Origin: Clostridia bacterium
GTDB lineage: Bacteria > Bacillota > Clostridia > Christensenellales > Aristaeellaceae
Length of the DNA: 64,000 nucleotides
NCBI GenBank assembly: GCA_017459565.1
Contig: JAFUCP010000029.1
Span: forward strand, 1-64,000
Direction: 5' to 3'
The translations under genes and the position numbers were made by a program. This document shows, piece by piece, positions 50,939 through 63,343 of this stretch. The notes below the pieces were generated by a model, which was given only the letters and a program-made list of their open reading frames with translations, did not search any database and was not told where the DNA came from. Every line of letters starts with the position of its first letter. Positions within the stretch are counted from its first letter, which is position 1.

Positions 50939-51099
50939 GATAAGAAGTGCTGGGGAGAGAGGTTCATGTGGACAGCAGAGGCGCTGGGGTACGAGCACCA
51001 TGATTGTGGACAGCAGATGTGAGAAGCGCAGTGGGCAGCTCCCACGCCTGCCTGCCTAAATGCCTGGCTTAAGATGGGATAATCAAGAAATGACTATAA
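50939..51099. repeat. Intergenic region with direct repeats of TGTGGACAGCAG
   Basis: This lies in the 317-base gap between 50878 and 51196. TGTGGACAGCAG occurs at 50967-50978 and 51005-51016. The last 11 bases of the unit recur at 62196-62206, where TGGACA is the -35 of the HU promoter. No gene is seen. Confidence 0.7.
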
Positions 51100-51151
51100 C
51101 AGTTGAAAAATGTCTAAATCAGTTGACTATGTTTCGATCTTTTGATAGAAT
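51100..51151 (+). promoter_or_regulatory. Promoter and candidate operator of the NurA-HerA operon
   Basis: TTGACT (51123-51128) and TAGAAT (51146-51151) are 17 bases apart, 44 bases before the XRE start. CAGTTGA occurs at 51100-51106 and 51120-51126, exactly 20 bases apart, so both copies face the same side of the helix and the second overlaps the -35. This fits binding by the small XRE protein encoded first. Confidence 0.7.
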
Positions 51152-51195
51152 ATAACATGAAATATTGGATCTATTTGCTCATCGGGAGGTGTAGA

Positions 51196-51420
51196 ATGGC
51201 TGTAAGCTACCGGAAATTATGGCATTTGATGTTGGATAAAAAAATAAACAAATCCGGGCTCGAAAAACTTGCCGGCATTTCACATCATTCTATTTTGAAG
51301 ATGAACAGGGATGAAGATGTTTCAACTGAGGTGCTGACGAAGATATGTAGTGCGCTGCAGTGCAATGTCCAGGATATTGTAGAGTTTCTACCAGATAATA
51401 GTCATTCAGAAGAGACCTAA
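51196..51420 (+). CDS. Small XRE-family regulator (operon leader)
   Basis: This 74-residue protein is little more than a Cro/C1 helix-turn-helix: MAVSYRKLWHLMLDKKINKS, then LEKLAGISHHSILKMNRDED and LTKICSALQCNVQDIVEF. It is of the HTH_26/YozG-like type and similar to the protein at 63.1 kb. As first gene of the NurA-HerA-GHKL-radical SAM operon it probably represses it. GGGAGGTG precedes the ATG at 51196. Confidence 0.85.
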   Translation: MAVSYRKLWHLMLDKKINKSGLEKLAGISHHSILKMNRDEDVSTEVLTKICSALQCNVQDIVEFLPDNSHSEET

Positions 51421-51439
51421 GCTGAAAGGAGAAGCTATA

Positions 51440-52606
51440 GTGGCAGATAGGATAATGTCATGCCTTGCCAAAGAAACAGGCGGCACAAGCTACAAGGCTT
51501 TCAAGTACGGTCTCGATCATGCAGATAGACCTACAGTCGATTATGACGAGAACGGTATTATCTGGAAAGCCTACGGCGAAACCCAGCACCTAAAAAAATA
51601 TCGATCTTTGAAAGATCGGGCGAGTGAGTTGCAGGAGAATAACGAATACATTTTGACTTACTTTCTTGATGGCTCACGCCGTGTCTATAAGGTCGATGAT
51701 ATTGCGTATAATTTAGGTGGAAACCGTACCGGAATTTATCCTGCCATTGCAGGTCAGATCGGAGTAGCTTGTACCCACCGCGAGAATAGACGTTTGTCGT
51801 TGGCGCACATAGATCAGGAGATTGTCATAGCACTTCCTGACATGGCTGATAAAGATGGGAGAAACGGCTATTTCAATGCATTGGCGAGGAAGATCAATAC
51901 GCTACCCGTGCTTGCAAACGCTGGTGTTAAAATAGCTGACATTATCAAATATACGACAGACAAAGATACGGAAAAGTTTTCTGACAAAGGGGTGGCCCGC
52001 ATTCAGGAACGGATGATGAAAAAAGAAATTGATATGGTCGCTGCGCTTGTCAGGAATGGTGAAATAAACCAGGACAACTATCTTGTTAAGGATGGGTCGC
52101 TCGAGTATCGACCTTCAACGGAAGACAAACGAGATGAAAAGGCACTGATGAGGTTTAAGCAGAATTATAACTGGGTCATTGGTGTTTCAAAGAGCTTTAA
52201 TCCCGATATTTGTCTGGATGTAGATGGACACGCCAATCCCCGCTTTATTGCTGATTTACCATACCTTCATCGGACACCAGTATCGAAATATGTAAATCCA
52301 AAATGGTTCGGGGATTATTTGGAGTTTGCCGTTTGGTACATTAGGATACGTCCAAAGGAAAGAACCAGAACAGCCTTCGATGGCATTGTAAAAGTCGAAA
52401 AAATCCTTGTGAAGGAGAAAGAAGTTGCTCATGGGATGGACACCGATGACGTTGATACTATTAGCGCCAGCATCATCAATGAACGTGTTCCTGTCTGTTA
52501 TGGTTCAGATTTAAGATGGGCGAATCATTTGTATCCGATTTATTTGACAGAATCTTTACTAAAATCCAAGTACCTAAGCGCGGATGCTTTCCTACATTTA
52601 TTCTGA
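51440..52606 (+). CDS. NurA-like nuclease
   Basis: The 388-residue protein carries NurA-type motifs in the expected order: FLDGSRRV (D77), a second acidic strand HIDQEIVIALPD (about 123-134), DGSLEYRP (D218), VIGVSKS (K251) and a C-terminal YPIYLTESLLKSK. NurA is a Mn-dependent 5'-end nuclease that works with a HerA pump on DNA ends, and a HerA-like gene follows after 13 bases. The GTG start has AAAGGAGAAG upstream. The match is by motif only, so a divergent subfamily is likely. A+T-richer than the chromosome around it. Confidence 0.78.
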   Translation: MADRIMSCLAKETGGTSYKAFKYGLDHADRPTVDYDENGIIWKAYGETQHLKKYRSLKDRASELQENNEYILTYFLDGSRRVYKVDDIAYNLGGNRTGIYPAIAGQIGVACTHRENRRLSLAHIDQEIVIALPDMADKDGRNGYFNALARKINTLPVLANAGVKIADIIKYTTDKDTEKFSDKGVARIQERMMKKEIDMVAALVRNGEINQDNYLVKDGSLEYRPSTEDKRDEKALMRFKQNYNWVIGVSKSFNPDICLDVDGHANPRFIADLPYLHRTPVSKYVNPKWFGDYLEFAVWYIRIRPKERTRTAFDGIVKVEKILVKEKEVAHGMDTDDVDTISASIINERVPVCYGSDLRWANHLYPIYLTESLLKSKYLSADAFLHLF

Positions 52607-52619
52607 GAGGAGAAAGAGG

Positions 52620-54329
52620 ATGAACAGGCTGATTGGCAGGATCATTGCTACCGAGAAAAATCCTACGACGATGGATAAGTTCGTCTTCTGGACGGACTCG
52701 AATTTGAAACTTCATGCGTTTGATATCGTGAAAGTTGAACATCTTGAAGGATCGTTCACATTTGGCGTGGTAGAAAATATATCTCATATCACAGATGCTC
52801 AGAGTTTCTTGACGAATTATATTTCTAATGACTTCGGAGAATTAGATATTGAAGAACCCACGCTGCGCATTGGTATGAATTATGTGGAGGCAGCAGTTTC
52901 CTATAACACAATGGGAAACTATACTCCTGTACATAATAATATGAAAGTTTTCTTGGCGACGGAAGATGAGATAACAGCTGCCCTCGGCTTGAAAGACGTA
53001 AAGAATCCACTTGTATGTGGATCGCTAAAAATGTATGAAGGCACAGACGAAGAGATTGATCTTCCCGTTCATCTCAATTCAGCTTTTCTGCTTGGGCGTG
53101 AAGGTGCGCATCTAAACATTTCTGGCATTTCAGGTCTTGCATCTAAGACATCATATGCGATGTTCCTTCTTAAGGCAATTCAGGAGCGATATACTGGATT
53201 GGATGAAGAAGACGCTGGATCAGTGGCGTTTGTCATTTTCAACGTTAAAGGACATGATCTCATGTCTATTCACAAACCGAACGATTTTATAGATGAACCT
53301 GAAGGGGAAAAAGAACGGGTATTTAAGGCCTATCGTGACTTGGGGCTTACACCTGCTCCATTCAAAGATGTGCATTACTTTATACCTTACACAGCTGAAA
53401 CGACCTCAAAGCAGTCCACATATCTTCCACGAGAAGATGTGGAAACCTATATGCGCCAGAAAAGGCTGAGCAAATTTAAGTATTCCTACATGGACGACAA
53501 AGAAAGTATTGAAATGCTCTTTGCCGACGTAGAAGATCCCCAGCAAACTATGGAATCCATTATCAGCAAGGTAATAGACGAAAGCGACCCAGATTTCAGA
53601 AGTATAAGCAGTTGGAATGGGTTCCTTGAAAAAGTGGATGAGCTCTCTCAGAAGTCCACGACGACATCAAAAGGTACAGCACGATCTAATGAGATCAACA
53701 TCCTCAGCTGGAGAAAATTCAAGAGGATTATCAACAAGGCTTTGAAGAATGATGATATGTTCGCAAATCGGCCTGATGAAACACGTGGCGAATGCAGGCT
53801 TGCAGATTCTGTTATGAGAATTCGTCCGAATGATGTTTTTGTGGTTGATATTGCTAAGTTGCCAGAGGACAAGCAAGCATTCGTATTTGGCGATACAGTT
53901 CGGACGATCTACAACCTAAAACTGGGCGAATTTGATGGTAAGCCTGGAGTAAGGCCACCGTCAAAGATAGTCATTTTTGTTGATGAGCTCAACAAGTACG
54001 CATCAAAAGACACTCCGAAATCATCCCCGATTCTTCGGGAAATCCTTGATGTAACAGAACGTGGCCGTTCTTTGGGTGTCATTTTATTTGGAGCTGAACA
54101 GTTCAGATCCAATATTCATCAACGTGTTACTGGCAACTGCGCAACTCACGCATACGGTAGGACCAACAGTATTGAGACTGCAACTAAGGATTATGGTAGC
54201 CTTCCGTCAACGTATAAGAATATGCTGACGAGGTTGGATCAAGGAGATTATATCATCCAAAACCCTGTGTTCAGATCCCTACTGAAAATCCATTTTCCGA
54301 AGCCGATTTACAAACAACCGACGGATTGA
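52620..54329 (+). CDS. HerA-like DNA-translocating ATPase
   Basis: The 569-residue protein has an N-terminal HAS-barrel-like region (about 1-110), then a RecA-type ATPase core. The P-loop at 169-177 reads G-I-S-G-L-A-S-K-T, one residue longer than GxxxxGK[ST] and without the glycine before lysine. Walker B is KIVIFVDELNKYA, and a HerA-like LGVILFGAEQFRSNI with arginine follows. A long insert (about 225-370) separates the two halves. HerA forms hexamers that drive NurA along DNA. GAGGAGAAAGAGG precedes the ATG at 52620. Confidence 0.82.
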   Translation: MNRLIGRIIATEKNPTTMDKFVFWTDSNLKLHAFDIVKVEHLEGSFTFGVVENISHITDAQSFLTNYISNDFGELDIEEPTLRIGMNYVEAAVSYNTMGNYTPVHNNMKVFLATEDEITAALGLKDVKNPLVCGSLKMYEGTDEEIDLPVHLNSAFLLGREGAHLNISGISGLASKTSYAMFLLKAIQERYTGLDEEDAGSVAFVIFNVKGHDLMSIHKPNDFIDEPEGEKERVFKAYRDLGLTPAPFKDVHYFIPYTAETTSKQSTYLPREDVETYMRQKRLSKFKYSYMDDKESIEMLFADVEDPQQTMESIISKVIDESDPDFRSISSWNGFLEKVDELSQKSTTTSKGTARSNEINILSWRKFKRIINKALKNDDMFANRPDETRGECRLADSVMRIRPNDVFVVDIAKLPEDKQAFVFGDTVRTIYNLKLGEFDGKPGVRPPSKIVIFVDELNKYASKDTPKSSPILREILDVTERGRSLGVILFGAEQFRSNIHQRVTGNCATHAYGRTNSIETATKDYGSLPSTYKNMLTRLDQGDYIIQNPVFRSLLKIHFPKPIYKQPTD

Positions 54330-54339
54330 GGTAATTGAT

Positions 54340-55974
54340 ATGCCGGATTCTTCTGATTACGTCTTTGGCGCAAATATTCTTGATAATCTCACGACAGGAA
54401 TGTATACAGACTCACGGGTTATTTATCGTGAGTATATTCAGAATGCGTGTGATTCTATAGACGCGGCTATCGAAGAAGGCTTGCTGAGTCAGGGGCAGGG
54501 GACAGTTGAAATCTATACAGACGATTCAAGCCGCACCATCACTATTCGTGATAATGGAACAGGAATCTCTGCGCAAGCATTCAGAAGAACCTTAGGCAAT
54601 ATAGCTAATTCAGATAAAACATTGGGTGAATCAAAAGGCTTCAGAGGTATTGGTCGCCTGTGCGGTCTTGCCTATTGTGAAACGTTAGTCTTTTCTTCCA
54701 AAGTAAGCGGAGAGAGCTCAATCTCTTATATGAAGTGCGACGCAAAGATGATGCGTCGGCTGATTAATGAGAACCAAAGCCAGCGCAATGTGAAACTGTC
54801 CGCAGCAGAAGTGTTAGATAGGATCATTACCTATGATAAAAAGGACAGCAAAGATATCTCTGGACATTGGTTTGAGGTTGAACTTATCAATGTGAACGCG
54901 GAGAACCATGAGCTGCTGGCCAGAGAGAGTGTAATCGATTATCTCTCATTTGTTGCTCCGGTTCCATTTAACAAGAATTTCAGTTATCGAACTGCTATAT
55001 ATACATACGTTCAAGCGCATCACTATCACCTATATGAATATGTCATCAAGGTTAATGGAGAACAAATTTTCAAGGACTACAGAACTTATGTGAAAACCAG
55101 CAAAGGTGAAGATCATATATTTCAAGTGCAATTTCATGAAATATATGATGATGACAATGAAGTAATAGCATGGGTGTGGTATGGCCTTAGAAATTTTCAG
55201 GCAGTGATCGACAAGGACAGTCCACAACGCGGACTTCGTCTCCGTAAAGAGAACATCCAAATTGGGGATGAGGATGCATTACAGCGGTTGTTTAAGGAGG
55301 ATCGAGGCACACATTATTTTATCGGAGAAGTCCATGCTATTTCGCGTGACCTAATTCCGAATTCTCAAAGAGACTACTTTAATGAGAATCAGATGCGTAA
55401 TATATTCGAACGTGAAGCAGAACAATATTTTGTAGACACGCTTCACAAATTATATCATGCAGGGAATGACTTTAGTACAGCTGTGGATAAAATTGATGCA
55501 TATGAGAAACAGCGTGAAGAATTTGAACAGAAGAAGCGGAATGGTGATTACATAGATGACCAGCAGCGGAAAGATGCAGAAGCGAAGGTTAACAAGGCAA
55601 AGAGGAATGCTGAGGATGCCAAAAAGAAGATCGTCAATGTAACAGATCGCTATAAAGGTGATCCGGACAGCCCGATATTCAAAGTTGTGTCGCGCATAGC
55701 TAAAGATCGCGGTGCCACGAAATATATAGCCTCCAGTAGTAATGGCGGAGAAGGTTCTACGCCTGTACAGGAGGACAATCCGTCTGGAGAATCACAAGGG
55801 GAACCGAAGAAAGAAGAGCAGCCCAGGAAAAAACAATGGTGGACTGACAGACTGACATCGGTTCCAAAGAATGAACGAAAACTAATTACACGAGTGCTTA
55901 GAGTCGTTCGCAAATGTGTGGATGAGACTACCATGAAGAAGATACTAGATAAGGTAGAGGAAGATTTTAAATGA
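54340..55974 (+). CDS. GHKL (Hsp90/MORC-like) ATPase
   Basis: This 544-residue protein has the Bergerat ATP fold: N-box EYIQNACDSI (E31, N35, D38), DNGTGIS (71-77) and GFRGIGRL (100-107). A transducer-like domain follows to about 380, with SPQRGLRLRKENIQIG and PNSQRDYFNENQ resembling Hsp90-type middle segments. After a charged helical stretch (KQREEFEQKKRNGDYIDD to about 435) and a flexible linker, a short helical end closes the protein. Such ATPases act as clamps; as the third gene of the cassette it could sense or gate the NurA-HerA complex. That role is inference. Confidence 0.82.
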   Translation: MPDSSDYVFGANILDNLTTGMYTDSRVIYREYIQNACDSIDAAIEEGLLSQGQGTVEIYTDDSSRTITIRDNGTGISAQAFRRTLGNIANSDKTLGESKGFRGIGRLCGLAYCETLVFSSKVSGESSISYMKCDAKMMRRLINENQSQRNVKLSAAEVLDRIITYDKKDSKDISGHWFEVELINVNAENHELLARESVIDYLSFVAPVPFNKNFSYRTAIYTYVQAHHYHLYEYVIKVNGEQIFKDYRTYVKTSKGEDHIFQVQFHEIYDDDNEVIAWVWYGLRNFQAVIDKDSPQRGLRLRKENIQIGDEDALQRLFKEDRGTHYFIGEVHAISRDLIPNSQRDYFNENQMRNIFEREAEQYFVDTLHKLYHAGNDFSTAVDKIDAYEKQREEFEQKKRNGDYIDDQQRKDAEAKVNKAKRNAEDAKKKIVNVTDRYKGDPDSPIFKVVSRIAKDRGATKYIASSSNGGEGSTPVQEDNPSGESQGEPKKEEQPRKKQWWTDRLTSVPKNERKLITRVLRVVRKCVDETTMKKILDKVEEDFK

Positions 55975-57866
55975 GTCGGAAAGTTCTCCTAATTGAGCCT
56001 GATTATAAAAACAAATACCCTCCGATGGGGCTCATGAAGATTGCTACTTATTTCCGTCGCTGCGGAGATGATGTGCGATTTTTCAAGGGAGATCTGAGAC
56101 ACTTTGCAGCCCAATTACTCTGTGAGGAATATTTGCAAGAAAACAACGAGCACAGAATCAAAAGGTATTACCCTAACCTCCTCAATTATATAAAGCATGG
56201 TCACCTAAATGATATTGATGTTATCCCGGACTTTATGGGCACATCGTTGCAGGTGAATATTCAGTATTATCATATGCGATATGTGCATAAGGAATATCCA
56301 AAATTTGACTTCATAGGGGTAACAACGCTGTTCACGTTTTATTGGAAAAAAACAGTTGACACTATTAACCAGGCGAAACAGTTTCTCGCTGAGAATGGTC
56401 GCTTTATGGTAGGGGGGATAGCGTCTACGATTCTTCCTGAGCAGCTTTTTAAGGATACTGGTGTCCATCCCCACCTCGGACTATTGGATAAACCCGGAGA
56501 CATTGATGAGGGCAACCCAGATATAATCGACGAACTGCCTCTGGATTATTCGATTCTGCATGAAGTAGATTATCGTTATCCTGTAAGCGATGCCTATTTT
56601 GGATACATGACTCGCGGCTGCCCTCGAAACTGTACCTTTTGTGCTGTAAAAACACTGGAACCGAATTATAAGGACTATATCGGTATTAAGGATCAGTTAC
56701 AGTATATTAATAAGCGGTTCGGAGTAAAACGTGATTTGCTCCTGATGGATAACAATGTATTTGCATCTAAGTGTTTTGCGCAGATTATCGGGGAAATTAA
56801 AAAATGCGGGTTTGAAAAGGGTTCAAAATATGTCCCGAGCGATGAATATGTAATCGCTCTTCAGAATTTGAAGGAAGGGTATAATATTAGAGCTTATCTG
56901 CGTGTTGTAGTTGATATTTATAATAAGATCGCAGAAAAACTCACCAACGAAGAAGCGGGGGGGCTATATCTAAAGAGAGAAGAGCTTGCGCTACTCTATG
57001 CTGAAACAGCAACAGTAGATTCAGTAATACAGTTCGATGCTCTTTTCAGACCCTTTTATGATGCTCATCATAATTTACTCCCTAGAGTTCATCATATCGA
57101 TTTTAATCAAGGGTTGGATGCCAGACTTGCCACAGATGCGAAAATGGCAAAGCTTTCTGAAATATGCATAAAACCGCTGAGAATCGCATTTGACCATTAT
57201 GAACAGAGGGATACTTACTGTCGAGCTATCAGGCTTGCGGCGGCACATGGCATTACTGATATGTCAAATTATCTGTTGTATAATTTCGAGGATACACCCG
57301 AAGAATTATACTACCGTATGAAGATCAATGTTGACCTCTGCCAAGAGTTGGGAGTAAAAATATACTCTTTTCCGATGAAATATCATCCAATACGGGATCC
57401 GGAGTTCTTCGATAACAGAGACTATATTGGAAAGCGTTGGAATCGGAAATTCATAAGAACAATTCAGTGTATTCTGAATTCAACGAAAGGGAAAGTCGGG
57501 GCAAACAAAGCCTTTTTTGAACAAGCGTTTGGTAGAGATGTTGACGAATTTCACCGCTTGCTTTGGATGCCGGAAGAGTTCATCTTATTCCGCAGTAAGT
57601 ACGACGCAGAGTTTCGTGCCAGATTGGCAATCATGAATCCTGATAAGTACACGGCGAAGTCAAAGGACGGAAGTGATTTAGCGAATGAATGGTGGGATGC
57701 ATTCAACAGGCTTGATCCTCAAAAACTGGAAATTGCAAAGGCAATAATAAGCACAAACCAGTTTGATGAAGGGTCATACGAGTGCGATGACGATGAGATA
57801 TCATCATTGCTTGAGTACTATCGAATATCGTCGAATAATGCTCCGAAGATTATTGACGACGATTAG
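55971..57866 (+). CDS. Radical SAM protein with B12-binding-like N-terminal region
   Basis: The product has 631 residues. The N-terminal 170 residues look like a B12-binding-type Rossmann domain (VLLIEPDYKNKYPPMGLMKI, FDFIGVTTLF, GRFMVGGIAST), though the cobalamin histidine motif is not visible. The radical SAM cluster motif CPRNCTFC gives C217, C221 and C224. Later segments (HHIDFNQGLDARL, IAFDHYEQRDTYCRAI) fit a B12-dependent-type barrel. The substrate is unknown. It overlaps the GHKL gene by 4 bases, so it is translated with the nuclease/ATPase genes. Confidence 0.82.
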   Translation: MSRKVLLIEPDYKNKYPPMGLMKIATYFRRCGDDVRFFKGDLRHFAAQLLCEEYLQENNEHRIKRYYPNLLNYIKHGHLNDIDVIPDFMGTSLQVNIQYYHMRYVHKEYPKFDFIGVTTLFTFYWKKTVDTINQAKQFLAENGRFMVGGIASTILPEQLFKDTGVHPHLGLLDKPGDIDEGNPDIIDELPLDYSILHEVDYRYPVSDAYFGYMTRGCPRNCTFCAVKTLEPNYKDYIGIKDQLQYINKRFGVKRDLLLMDNNVFASKCFAQIIGEIKKCGFEKGSKYVPSDEYVIALQNLKEGYNIRAYLRVVVDIYNKIAEKLTNEEAGGLYLKREELALLYAETATVDSVIQFDALFRPFYDAHHNLLPRVHHIDFNQGLDARLATDAKMAKLSEICIKPLRIAFDHYEQRDTYCRAIRLAAAHGITDMSNYLLYNFEDTPEELYYRMKINVDLCQELGVKIYSFPMKYHPIRDPEFFDNRDYIGKRWNRKFIRTIQCILNSTKGKVGANKAFFEQAFGRDVDEFHRLLWMPEEFILFRSKYDAEFRARLAIMNPDKYTAKSKDGSDLANEWWDAFNRLDPQKLEIAKAIISTNQFDEGSYECDDDEISSLLEYYRISSNNAPKIIDDD

Positions 57867-58156
57867 GGAAAAAGAGTGTGTGACCACCCCAATGTTCAAT
57901 CATCACGAAATAATCCGCATCGCCTTATCGGCTGTGAGTATGGAGAGTACCATCGAAAGGAACAACACCTTCGTTGAGATAGAGCAGTTTTCTTCATACT
58001 CCTTTGCCTCGGTTGGAACAGCAGCCAACTGGGGCTTATTATTCATTGACCGGATGACCATCCTTGGGGTATAATGGATACCAAGAAATAAACTGACGCC
58101 AGTGGATGAAATTTGCATCCAGATGGTAAATGAGCAGCGGCGCAAGGAGATCGAGT
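57867..58156 (+). other. Intergenic region after the NurA-HerA operon, with promoter at 58046-58075
   Basis: TTGACC (58046-58051) and TATAAT (58070-58075) are 18 bases apart and serve the next gene. An open frame at 57892-58074 (60 residues, MFNHHEIIRIALSAV...) has no ribosome site and is left unannotated. I see no strong terminator after the radical SAM gene. Confidence 0.55.
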
Positions 58157-63127: not shown

Positions 63128-63343
63128 CTATCGGATGCGCGTCGGGAAGCCTCTGAAGGAGCATATGTCACCGATGTCCGCATTAAGGGCGTTGCAGACC
63201 CTTTCCAGAACATCCAAGCGGACAGCCTCTCCCTTGACCAGCTTTTGGTAGGTGGATTCACTGATTCCGGCAAGGGATATGATGTCGCGCTGTGTATAGC
63301 CGCGTCGGGAGAGGAGCAACCATAGCTTTTTGTAGCTGATCAT
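63128..63343 (-). CDS. Small XRE-family regulator
   Basis: This 71-residue helix-turn-helix protein reads MISYKKLWLLLSRRGYTQRD, then LAGISESTYQKLVKGEAV and LERVCNALNADIGDICSF. It is clearly related to the leader gene of the NurA-HerA operon at 51.2 kb. It is divergent from the next small membrane protein gene. AGAGGAGG precedes the ATG. Its target is unknown. Confidence 0.85.
   Translation of the reverse strand: MISYKKLWLLLSRRGYTQRDIISLAGISESTYQKLVKGEAVRLDVLERVCNALNADIGDICSFRGFPTRIR

Follow-up and report, generated by a model that had tools for sequence, protein, structure and literature searches.

A recurring NurA-HerA-GHKL-radical SAM cassette in a Clostridia bacterium as a candidate restriction-modification-like system

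The locus and its low-G+C island

The stretch of DNA examined in this study (hereafter, the window) comprises 64,000 nucleotides from a Clostridia bacterium (positions 1 to 64,000, forward strand, of contig JAFUCP010000029.1 in the GenBank assembly GCA_017459565.1), in which four genes on the + strand (51440-57866) form an operon encoding a NurA-type nuclease, a HerA-type DNA translocase, a GHKL ATPase and a radical S-adenosylmethionine (SAM) enzyme, abbreviated as rSAM. We call these four genes the cassette; a gene for a small DNA-binding protein of the XRE type lies ahead of them. An earlier inspection of the letters alone (the sequence-only reading) had described all five genes as one unit behind a single promoter. 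Indeed, a check of the open reading frames (ORFs) in the window located the five on the + strand exactly as described, with the same gaps and a 4-base overlap between GHKL and rSAM, and one promoter-like site, a consensus match only, was found 5' of the XRE gene. The features are as follows.

51123-51151, + strand: promoter-like site, TTGACT-17-TAGAAT with TG ahead of the -10 (extended -10); consensus match only
51196-51420, + strand: XRE/HTH_26 small DNA-binding protein, 74 amino acids, accessory; Pfam HTH_26, E 3e-17
51440-52606, + strand: NurA-type nuclease, 388 amino acids, GTG start; profile and predicted fold
52620-54329, + strand: HerA-type DNA translocase; Pfam DUF87, E 0.08, and PADLOC mad8, E 6e-7
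54340-55974, + strand: GHKL ATPase with an Hsp90-like N-terminal domain, 544 amino acids; Pfam HATPase_c_3, E 1e-9
55971-57866, + strand: rSAM with a B12-binding-type N-terminal fold, 631 amino acids; cysteine motif and predicted fold
58006-58035, + strand: terminator-like hairpin at the operon end; consensus match only
51050-58000, strand not applicable: low-G+C island with the cassette; G+C profile, DNA missing from 12 same-genus genomes

The XRE and NurA genes are spaced by 19 bases and the HerA and GHKL genes by 10 bases, and GHKL is translationally coupled to rSAM. The HerA frame is open from 52584, but homologues start at the ATG at 52620, which is hence the most likely start and leaves a gap of 13 bases after NurA. 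Also, the A+T-richness noticed earlier proved to be that of an island: the G+C content is 0.41-0.43 across 51-58 kb, whereas most of the first 46 kb has 0.54-0.65, the part to the right of 58 kb 0.51-0.57 and the chromosome roughly 60%. The genome has one copy of the cassette DNA, and none was found in any of the 12 same-genus genomes searched, in which the flanking genes are not syntenic and no clean empty insertion site was found. About 5 kb downstream of the cassette, a second small HTH_26-like protein similar to the cassette XRE is encoded on the opposite strand (63128-63343, -).

Identity of the encoded proteins

While NurA had no match in Pfam, its profile matched the Deinococcus NurA (7f6d, E 6e-6), and Foldseek placed its AlphaFold2 (AF2) model (pLDDT 90) with the HerA-NurA complex 7f6d (E 2.7e-12) and Sulfolobus NurA (2ygk, E 2.1e-8) and with nothing else below 0.001; the alignments behind the structure models were composed of rows without plasmid or phage records. 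D77, G78, S79, E196, D218, D357, R359, H363 and Y365 are invariant in 48 sequences, and D77, D218 and H363 are presumably catalytic by analogy with archaeal NurA. The NurA-type nuclease recognized in the sequence-only reading is thus confirmed by the predicted structure. As for HerA, Pfam offered DUF87 only at the marginal E value listed above, and mad8 was the only model of the MADS system matched in the cassette. The protein is 32% identical to the product of a gene annotated as HerA in Marinitoga camini virus 1 and has a conserved P-loop (GISGLA-x-KT) and Walker B motif (D467-E468), so far as sequence can tell a divergent member of the HerA ATPases. This virus (L014) carries NurA-HerA and, convergent to it, a short rSAM gene annotated as hypothetical.

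With a NurA fold, its catalytic residues and an adjoining HerA ATPase, the cassette resembles the NurA-HerA end-resection complex of archaea and Deinococcus (7f6d, 2ygk), including the acidic/His pattern of the nuclease. In contrast to that complex, the cassette is mobile and patchy in distribution, is equipped with GHKL and rSAM, has no Mre11-Rad50 genes in the operon, and encodes a HerA of a divergent subfamily with the P-loop described above. Since the Deinococcus NurA-HerA has been reported to possess strong endonucleolytic activity (PMC9960219), a further nuclease would not be needed in principle.

In rSAM, Pfam recognized the B12-binding and Radical_SAM domains, both under the Pfam cut-offs. 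The CxxxCxxC cysteines (C217, C221 and C224) are invariant in 55 sequences, phage relatives included, and a D377-F-N-Q-G-x-D-A-R motif is nearly so. The AF2 model (pLDDT 94) was closest to TsrM (7e-8), AprD4 (1e-6) and MiaB (1e-5) in Foldseek. The predicted structure thus combines a B12-binding domain fold with a radical SAM core, as in cobalamin-dependent radical SAM enzymes, and makes rSAM a B12-domain-type member. No DxHxxG motif was seen in the N-terminal consensus; AprD4 is an example of this fold without B12. The relatives methylate, methylthiolate or dehydrate, and the chemistry of rSAM cannot therefore be deduced from its structure. Among the NCBIfam models, neither viperin nor any other radical SAM equivalog exceeded its cut-off, and the only match in PHROGs was phrog_9298, “radical SAM domain protein”; rSAM is hence not a viperin by these models, its CxxxCxxC motif notwithstanding.

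GHKL matched HtpG structures at E 2.5e-10 (profile A2), and its ATP-binding motifs are conserved (N-box E31/N35, D71-N72-G75 and G100-R106). A GHKL ATPase in a restriction-type operon is reminiscent of the MORC/paraMORC proteins of restriction-modification operons (PMC2292703), but the cassette has no SF2 helicase or methylase, its GHKL is closest to Hsp90/HtpG, and the partner is rSAM. At three related loci, a gene for an HNH endonuclease replaces or adjoins GHKL (L052 9162-10001, L054 8386-9219 and L091 7662-8366).

Recurrence, partners and losses

At least 511 relatives of rSAM were found when 84,980 species genomes were scanned, many of the genomes in this analysis being metagenome-assembled genomes (MAGs). 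Among 79 homologous loci (the best loci plus two viral contigs), 46 retained the intact order NurA-HerA-GHKL-rSAM, as did 40 of the 57 with more than 5.5 kb of upstream sequence, and the order is hence not a matter of chance. It was found in Bacillota, Synergistota, Planctomycetota, Bacteroidota, Cloacimonadota, Melainabacteria and one Methanomicrobiales archaeon, with median intergenic gaps of 11 and 12 bases and with GHKL and rSAM touching or overlapping; at L073, L075 and some other loci genes had seemed to be lost, but tblastn showed these losses to be artefacts of ORF calling, and they were removed. The XRE gene, however, precedes NurA at only 5 of 40 other loci. We therefore rejected it as a core part, contrary to the five-gene cassette of the sequence-only reading, and regard the system as one of four genes with an optional regulator, probably an autoregulator. 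Neither Pfam, NCBIfam, PADLOC nor PHROGs has a name for the four-gene set, and the combination is not described in the searchable literature (preprints and most subscription papers were outside its coverage), in line with the earlier impression that the set is unnamed. The surroundings are of the defence type: the neighbours, picked by eye and without a background control, include AbiEi/AbiEii, Lamassu LmuB, AbiL-like and PDC candidate families, and relaxases, integrases and viral contigs mark the context as mobile. In Synergistota, the cassette, its remnants or orphan rSAM adjoin clpB (L042, L044, L045, L051, L080, L253 and L254), an apparent integration hotspot.

The homologues are not mostly found apart from each other, which would have spoken against a common system. 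In 189 genomes of a selenomonad family, HerA was found in 30, rSAM in 44 and both in 29 (hypergeometric P 5e-22); in 151 genomes of Synergistota, the respective numbers were 10, 11 and 8 (P 1e-9). When the two censuses are pooled, 37 of the 40 genomes with HerA have rSAM. The thirtieth selenomonad HerA (genome G706) was considered as a case of HerA alone and rejected, because its contig ends within GHKL.

Other restriction-type modules are also accompanied by rSAM. Among 398 evenly drawn Bacillota genomes, there were seven strong rSAM matches, each of them in a restriction-type operon, namely four NurA-HerA-GHKL-rSAM and three PbeABCD-rSAM; two of the latter three have GHKL, and one of these two also has a DndB/DpdB-like gene. 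PbeABCD is otherwise accompanied by phosphorothioate genes or cytosine methylases, and the DndD/CxC-DndE core likewise recruits phosphorothioate or methylase genes, as analyzed by Rakesh and colleagues, who did not describe this rSAM family (PMC10853773). A 38-kb contig (L106) has the DISARM genes DrmA (E 3e-161) and DrmB (E 1e-52), a NERD-helicase and rSAM-GHKL, with no C5 methylase on the contig and no methyltransferase recognized in the parts read. DISARM ordinarily includes a methyltransferase. The full operon (L106/L259/L326; IMGVR_UViG_2619619281_000003) reads GHKL, UvrD, a beta-solenoid protein, DrmA, DrmB, NERD-helicase, rSAM and GHKL, and has beside it a set similar to an ABC-type three-component system.

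At plasmid and prophage loci, rSAM-GHKL comes after or faces a set in which two ParB genes flank a gene for a small protein, judged by eye to be PD-(D/E)XK-like, and one for an SNF2 helicase (L107-L109, L114, L116, L117, L119 and L123; plasmids L012 and L013), joined at some loci by a DndB-like gene; on the plasmids, the second ParB and rSAM occur in the same records. Together with rSAM-GHKL, this set has the look of another defence system without a name. At L392, L393, L271 and L275, a gene of roughly 520-560 amino acids stands ahead of rSAM. This gene is ParB/GmrSD-like in L393 and, by visual inspection, in L392, which adds a ParB-rSAM pairing in genomes to those above. Phages have short rSAM genes after ParB-fold genes and just before terminase, and the best phage families of these ParB-fold genes include ParB-DNA methyltransferase. 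The Clostridia bacterium itself has such a short phage-type rSAM (306 amino acids), encoded 5' of a terminase-like gene in what appears to be a prophage (G000:C187:14448-14897; L227 8227-9147). In the Bacteroides phages L196, L197 and L199, short rSAM has Dam-like methyltransferase genes as neighbours and a PAPS-reductase-like gene nearby; DndC is related to the PAPS-reductase family.

The exchange is reciprocal. Five of nine NurA-HerA matches in 299 Bacillota genomes have Eco57I/N6 and/or N6_N4 DNA methyltransferases, and at these five no rSAM of this family was found. In such operons (L018-L022), NurA and HerA are adjacent and homologous to those of the cassette (25-42% identity), whereas DNA methyltransferases hold the modification slot in place of GHKL-rSAM. 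Two genes away from one of these operons is a B12-type radical SAM gene distinct from rSAM (L018 1927-3537, -). In the rSAM tree, interpreted without regard to the very long branches L228 and L229, the members associated with DISARM, Pbe and ParB-SNF2 form one clade (support 100/100), and partners have thus been exchanged among close relatives. Furthermore, GHKL is found with rSAM in four different restriction modules, and the methyltransferase-type NurA-HerA pairs lack it. For this reason we rejected GHKL as the partner of NurA-HerA, the pair that it had earlier been supposed to gate; its distribution places it more probably on the rSAM side.

The survival of the genes is asymmetric. Orphan rSAM without NurA-HerA has arisen by loss at least six separate times within the cassette clade of the rSAM tree; in seven genomes whose rSAM locus lacks NurA-HerA, a genome-wide search for HerA found none. 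These orphans keep the conserved residues under purifying selection (dN/dS, the ratio of nonsynonymous to synonymous substitution, about 0.1-0.2). Conversely, HerA without rSAM at a whole locus was found at only two loci of Synergistota (L253 and L254), both with damaged NurA, and at a third (L080) rSAM is frameshifted and NurA similarly altered. The changes at these three loci include D218S, H363D/Y and those at D357 and R359, and concern positions that 46-47 of 47 cassettes have in common; HerA is for the most part preserved, though with a stop in L254. This lineage has thus kept HerA and GHKL with altered active-site residues in NurA and with rSAM lost or frameshifted.

A possible role in marking self DNA

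We consider it reasonably probable (about 0.6) that the cassette is a mobile, restriction-modification-like system against invaders, in which rSAM marks self DNA and NurA-HerA destroys unmarked DNA. In this mechanism, rSAM, usually with the help of its GHKL partner, would chemically mark the DNA of the cell; a HerA hexamer would load and translocate on DNA and feed it to NurA unless blocked by the mark, so that unmarked DNA such as that of an incoming phage or plasmid would be degraded; and XRE, where present, would act as an autoregulator. The genomic context suggests rSAM as the modification enzyme, since several unrelated defence systems have it in place of their DNA-marking enzyme. Marking of self DNA, one of the options raised in the sequence-only reading, is now the best-supported role in view of the partner swapping in both directions and the asymmetric survival; damage to NurA where rSAM is lost or frameshifted would be expected of a restriction-modification pair. 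To the broader proposal, we give an even chance: rSAM, usually with GHKL, would be a previously unrecognized DNA-modification module of new chemistry, exchanged between NurA-HerA, PbeABCD, DISARM-core and ParB-SNF2, and the short versions that lie beside ParB in phages might serve to mark the phage DNA itself.

Several points weigh against self-marking. No DNA-binding domain is recognized in rSAM, the enzymes nearest to it in structure act on amino acids, sugars, tRNA or ribosomal protein, and NurA-HerA is known chiefly for DNA-end resection. The association with DISARM comes from one contig, the counts of orphan rSAM derive partly from incomplete MAGs, and part of the context counts was collected with rSAM as the anchor, a bias towards intact rSAM that prompted the additional censuses anchored on HerA. 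Also, L253, L254 and L080 are related and hence represent few events, and the genome G451 (L256) has an rSAM pseudogene with the active-site residues of NurA kept. A strict rule that the nuclease is lethal without modification forbids G451, unless its GHKL (P340L) or HerA is disabled. With a broken rSAM beside an apparently working NurA, therefore, the NurA damage is a tendency and not a rule.

As an alternative, rSAM might make a small molecule (a viperin-like nucleotide analogue, a signal or a toxin), with NurA-HerA-GHKL as a separate or signal-gated effector. Prokaryotic viperins are indeed radical SAM antiviral enzymes producing modified nucleotides (PMC12926258), and other immune systems pair HerA-type ATPases with effectors. 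Nonetheless, rSAM has a fold of the B12-domain type and passes no cut-off for viperin or other equivalogs, its recurrent partners are DNA-handling proteins (ParB/DndB-fold, Pbe, DISARM and SNF2), and orphan rSAM persists long without effectors; the toxin or signal previously entertained thus fits less well than marking, and we think it unlikely. The same DNA-directed contexts would suit rSAM-GHKL acting on invader DNA, which it would mark, damage or strip for degradation by NurA-HerA in a type IV-like logic, as would the HNH genes beside or replacing GHKL. Such a logic is improbable, however, because it explains neither the selected orphan rSAM against the damaged NurA at loci having HerA without rSAM nor the exchange with self-methylating enzymes. 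There is also a slim chance that rSAM modifies a protein (NurA, HerA or a host factor) and thereby switches the nuclease on or off, given that TsrM- and RimO/MiaB-type relatives include modifiers of amino acids, proteins and tRNA and that an Hsp90-like GHKL could present a client; but NurA-HerA, Pbe, DISARM and ParB-SNF2 share no protein except GHKL, and rSAM is retained at orphan loci without any such module. Finally, end resection of double-strand breaks, housekeeping or element-encoded, with rSAM as a repair enzyme would recall the NurA-HerA of archaea and Deinococcus (PMC9960219) and the DNA-repairing radical SAM enzyme spore photoproduct lyase, but is very unlikely for a patchy and mobile cassette with strong rSAM matches in 7 of 398 Bacillota genomes, none of its DNA in 12 same-genus genomes, a low-G+C island, defence-type neighbours and an operon that lacks Mre11/Rad50. 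A clear housekeeping role of rSAM would have told against the defence idea of the sequence-only reading, but its occurrence does not follow a housekeeping pattern.

Nor does the cassette coincide with described systems. This rSAM family also occurs in a subset of PbeABCD/CxC-DndE loci, either accompanied by GHKL or not, but the PbeABCD restriction module consists of HKD nuclease-SF2 helicase, ABC ATPase and DndE, none of which the cassette in the window encodes; the DndD/PbeC ABC ATPase and DndE/PbeD pair is present in the relatives L224-L229. Similarly, the DrmA helicase and DrmB (DUF1998) of the DISARM core at L106 are not found in the window cassette. The HerA-FtsK capture systems and DndFGH share a HerA-class translocase thought to pull invader DNA to a nuclease, whereas the cassette shows no Orc/Cdc6, DndG or DndF-like parts, its nuclease is NurA, and rSAM is not described in that work (PMC10853773).

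The DNA marks used in immunity have so far been mainly methylation, phosphorothioation and 7-deazaguanine. If self-marking by rSAM is true, it would constitute a new class of DNA-modifying enzyme, and the DNA of carriers would contain a detectable, not yet known nucleotide. NurA-HerA would then gain a role in immunity, adding a reason why some anaerobes resist foreign DNA, and, if rSAM indeed marks DNA for several unrelated restriction machines, a whole chemistry of DNA modification awaits in common gut anaerobes and their phages.

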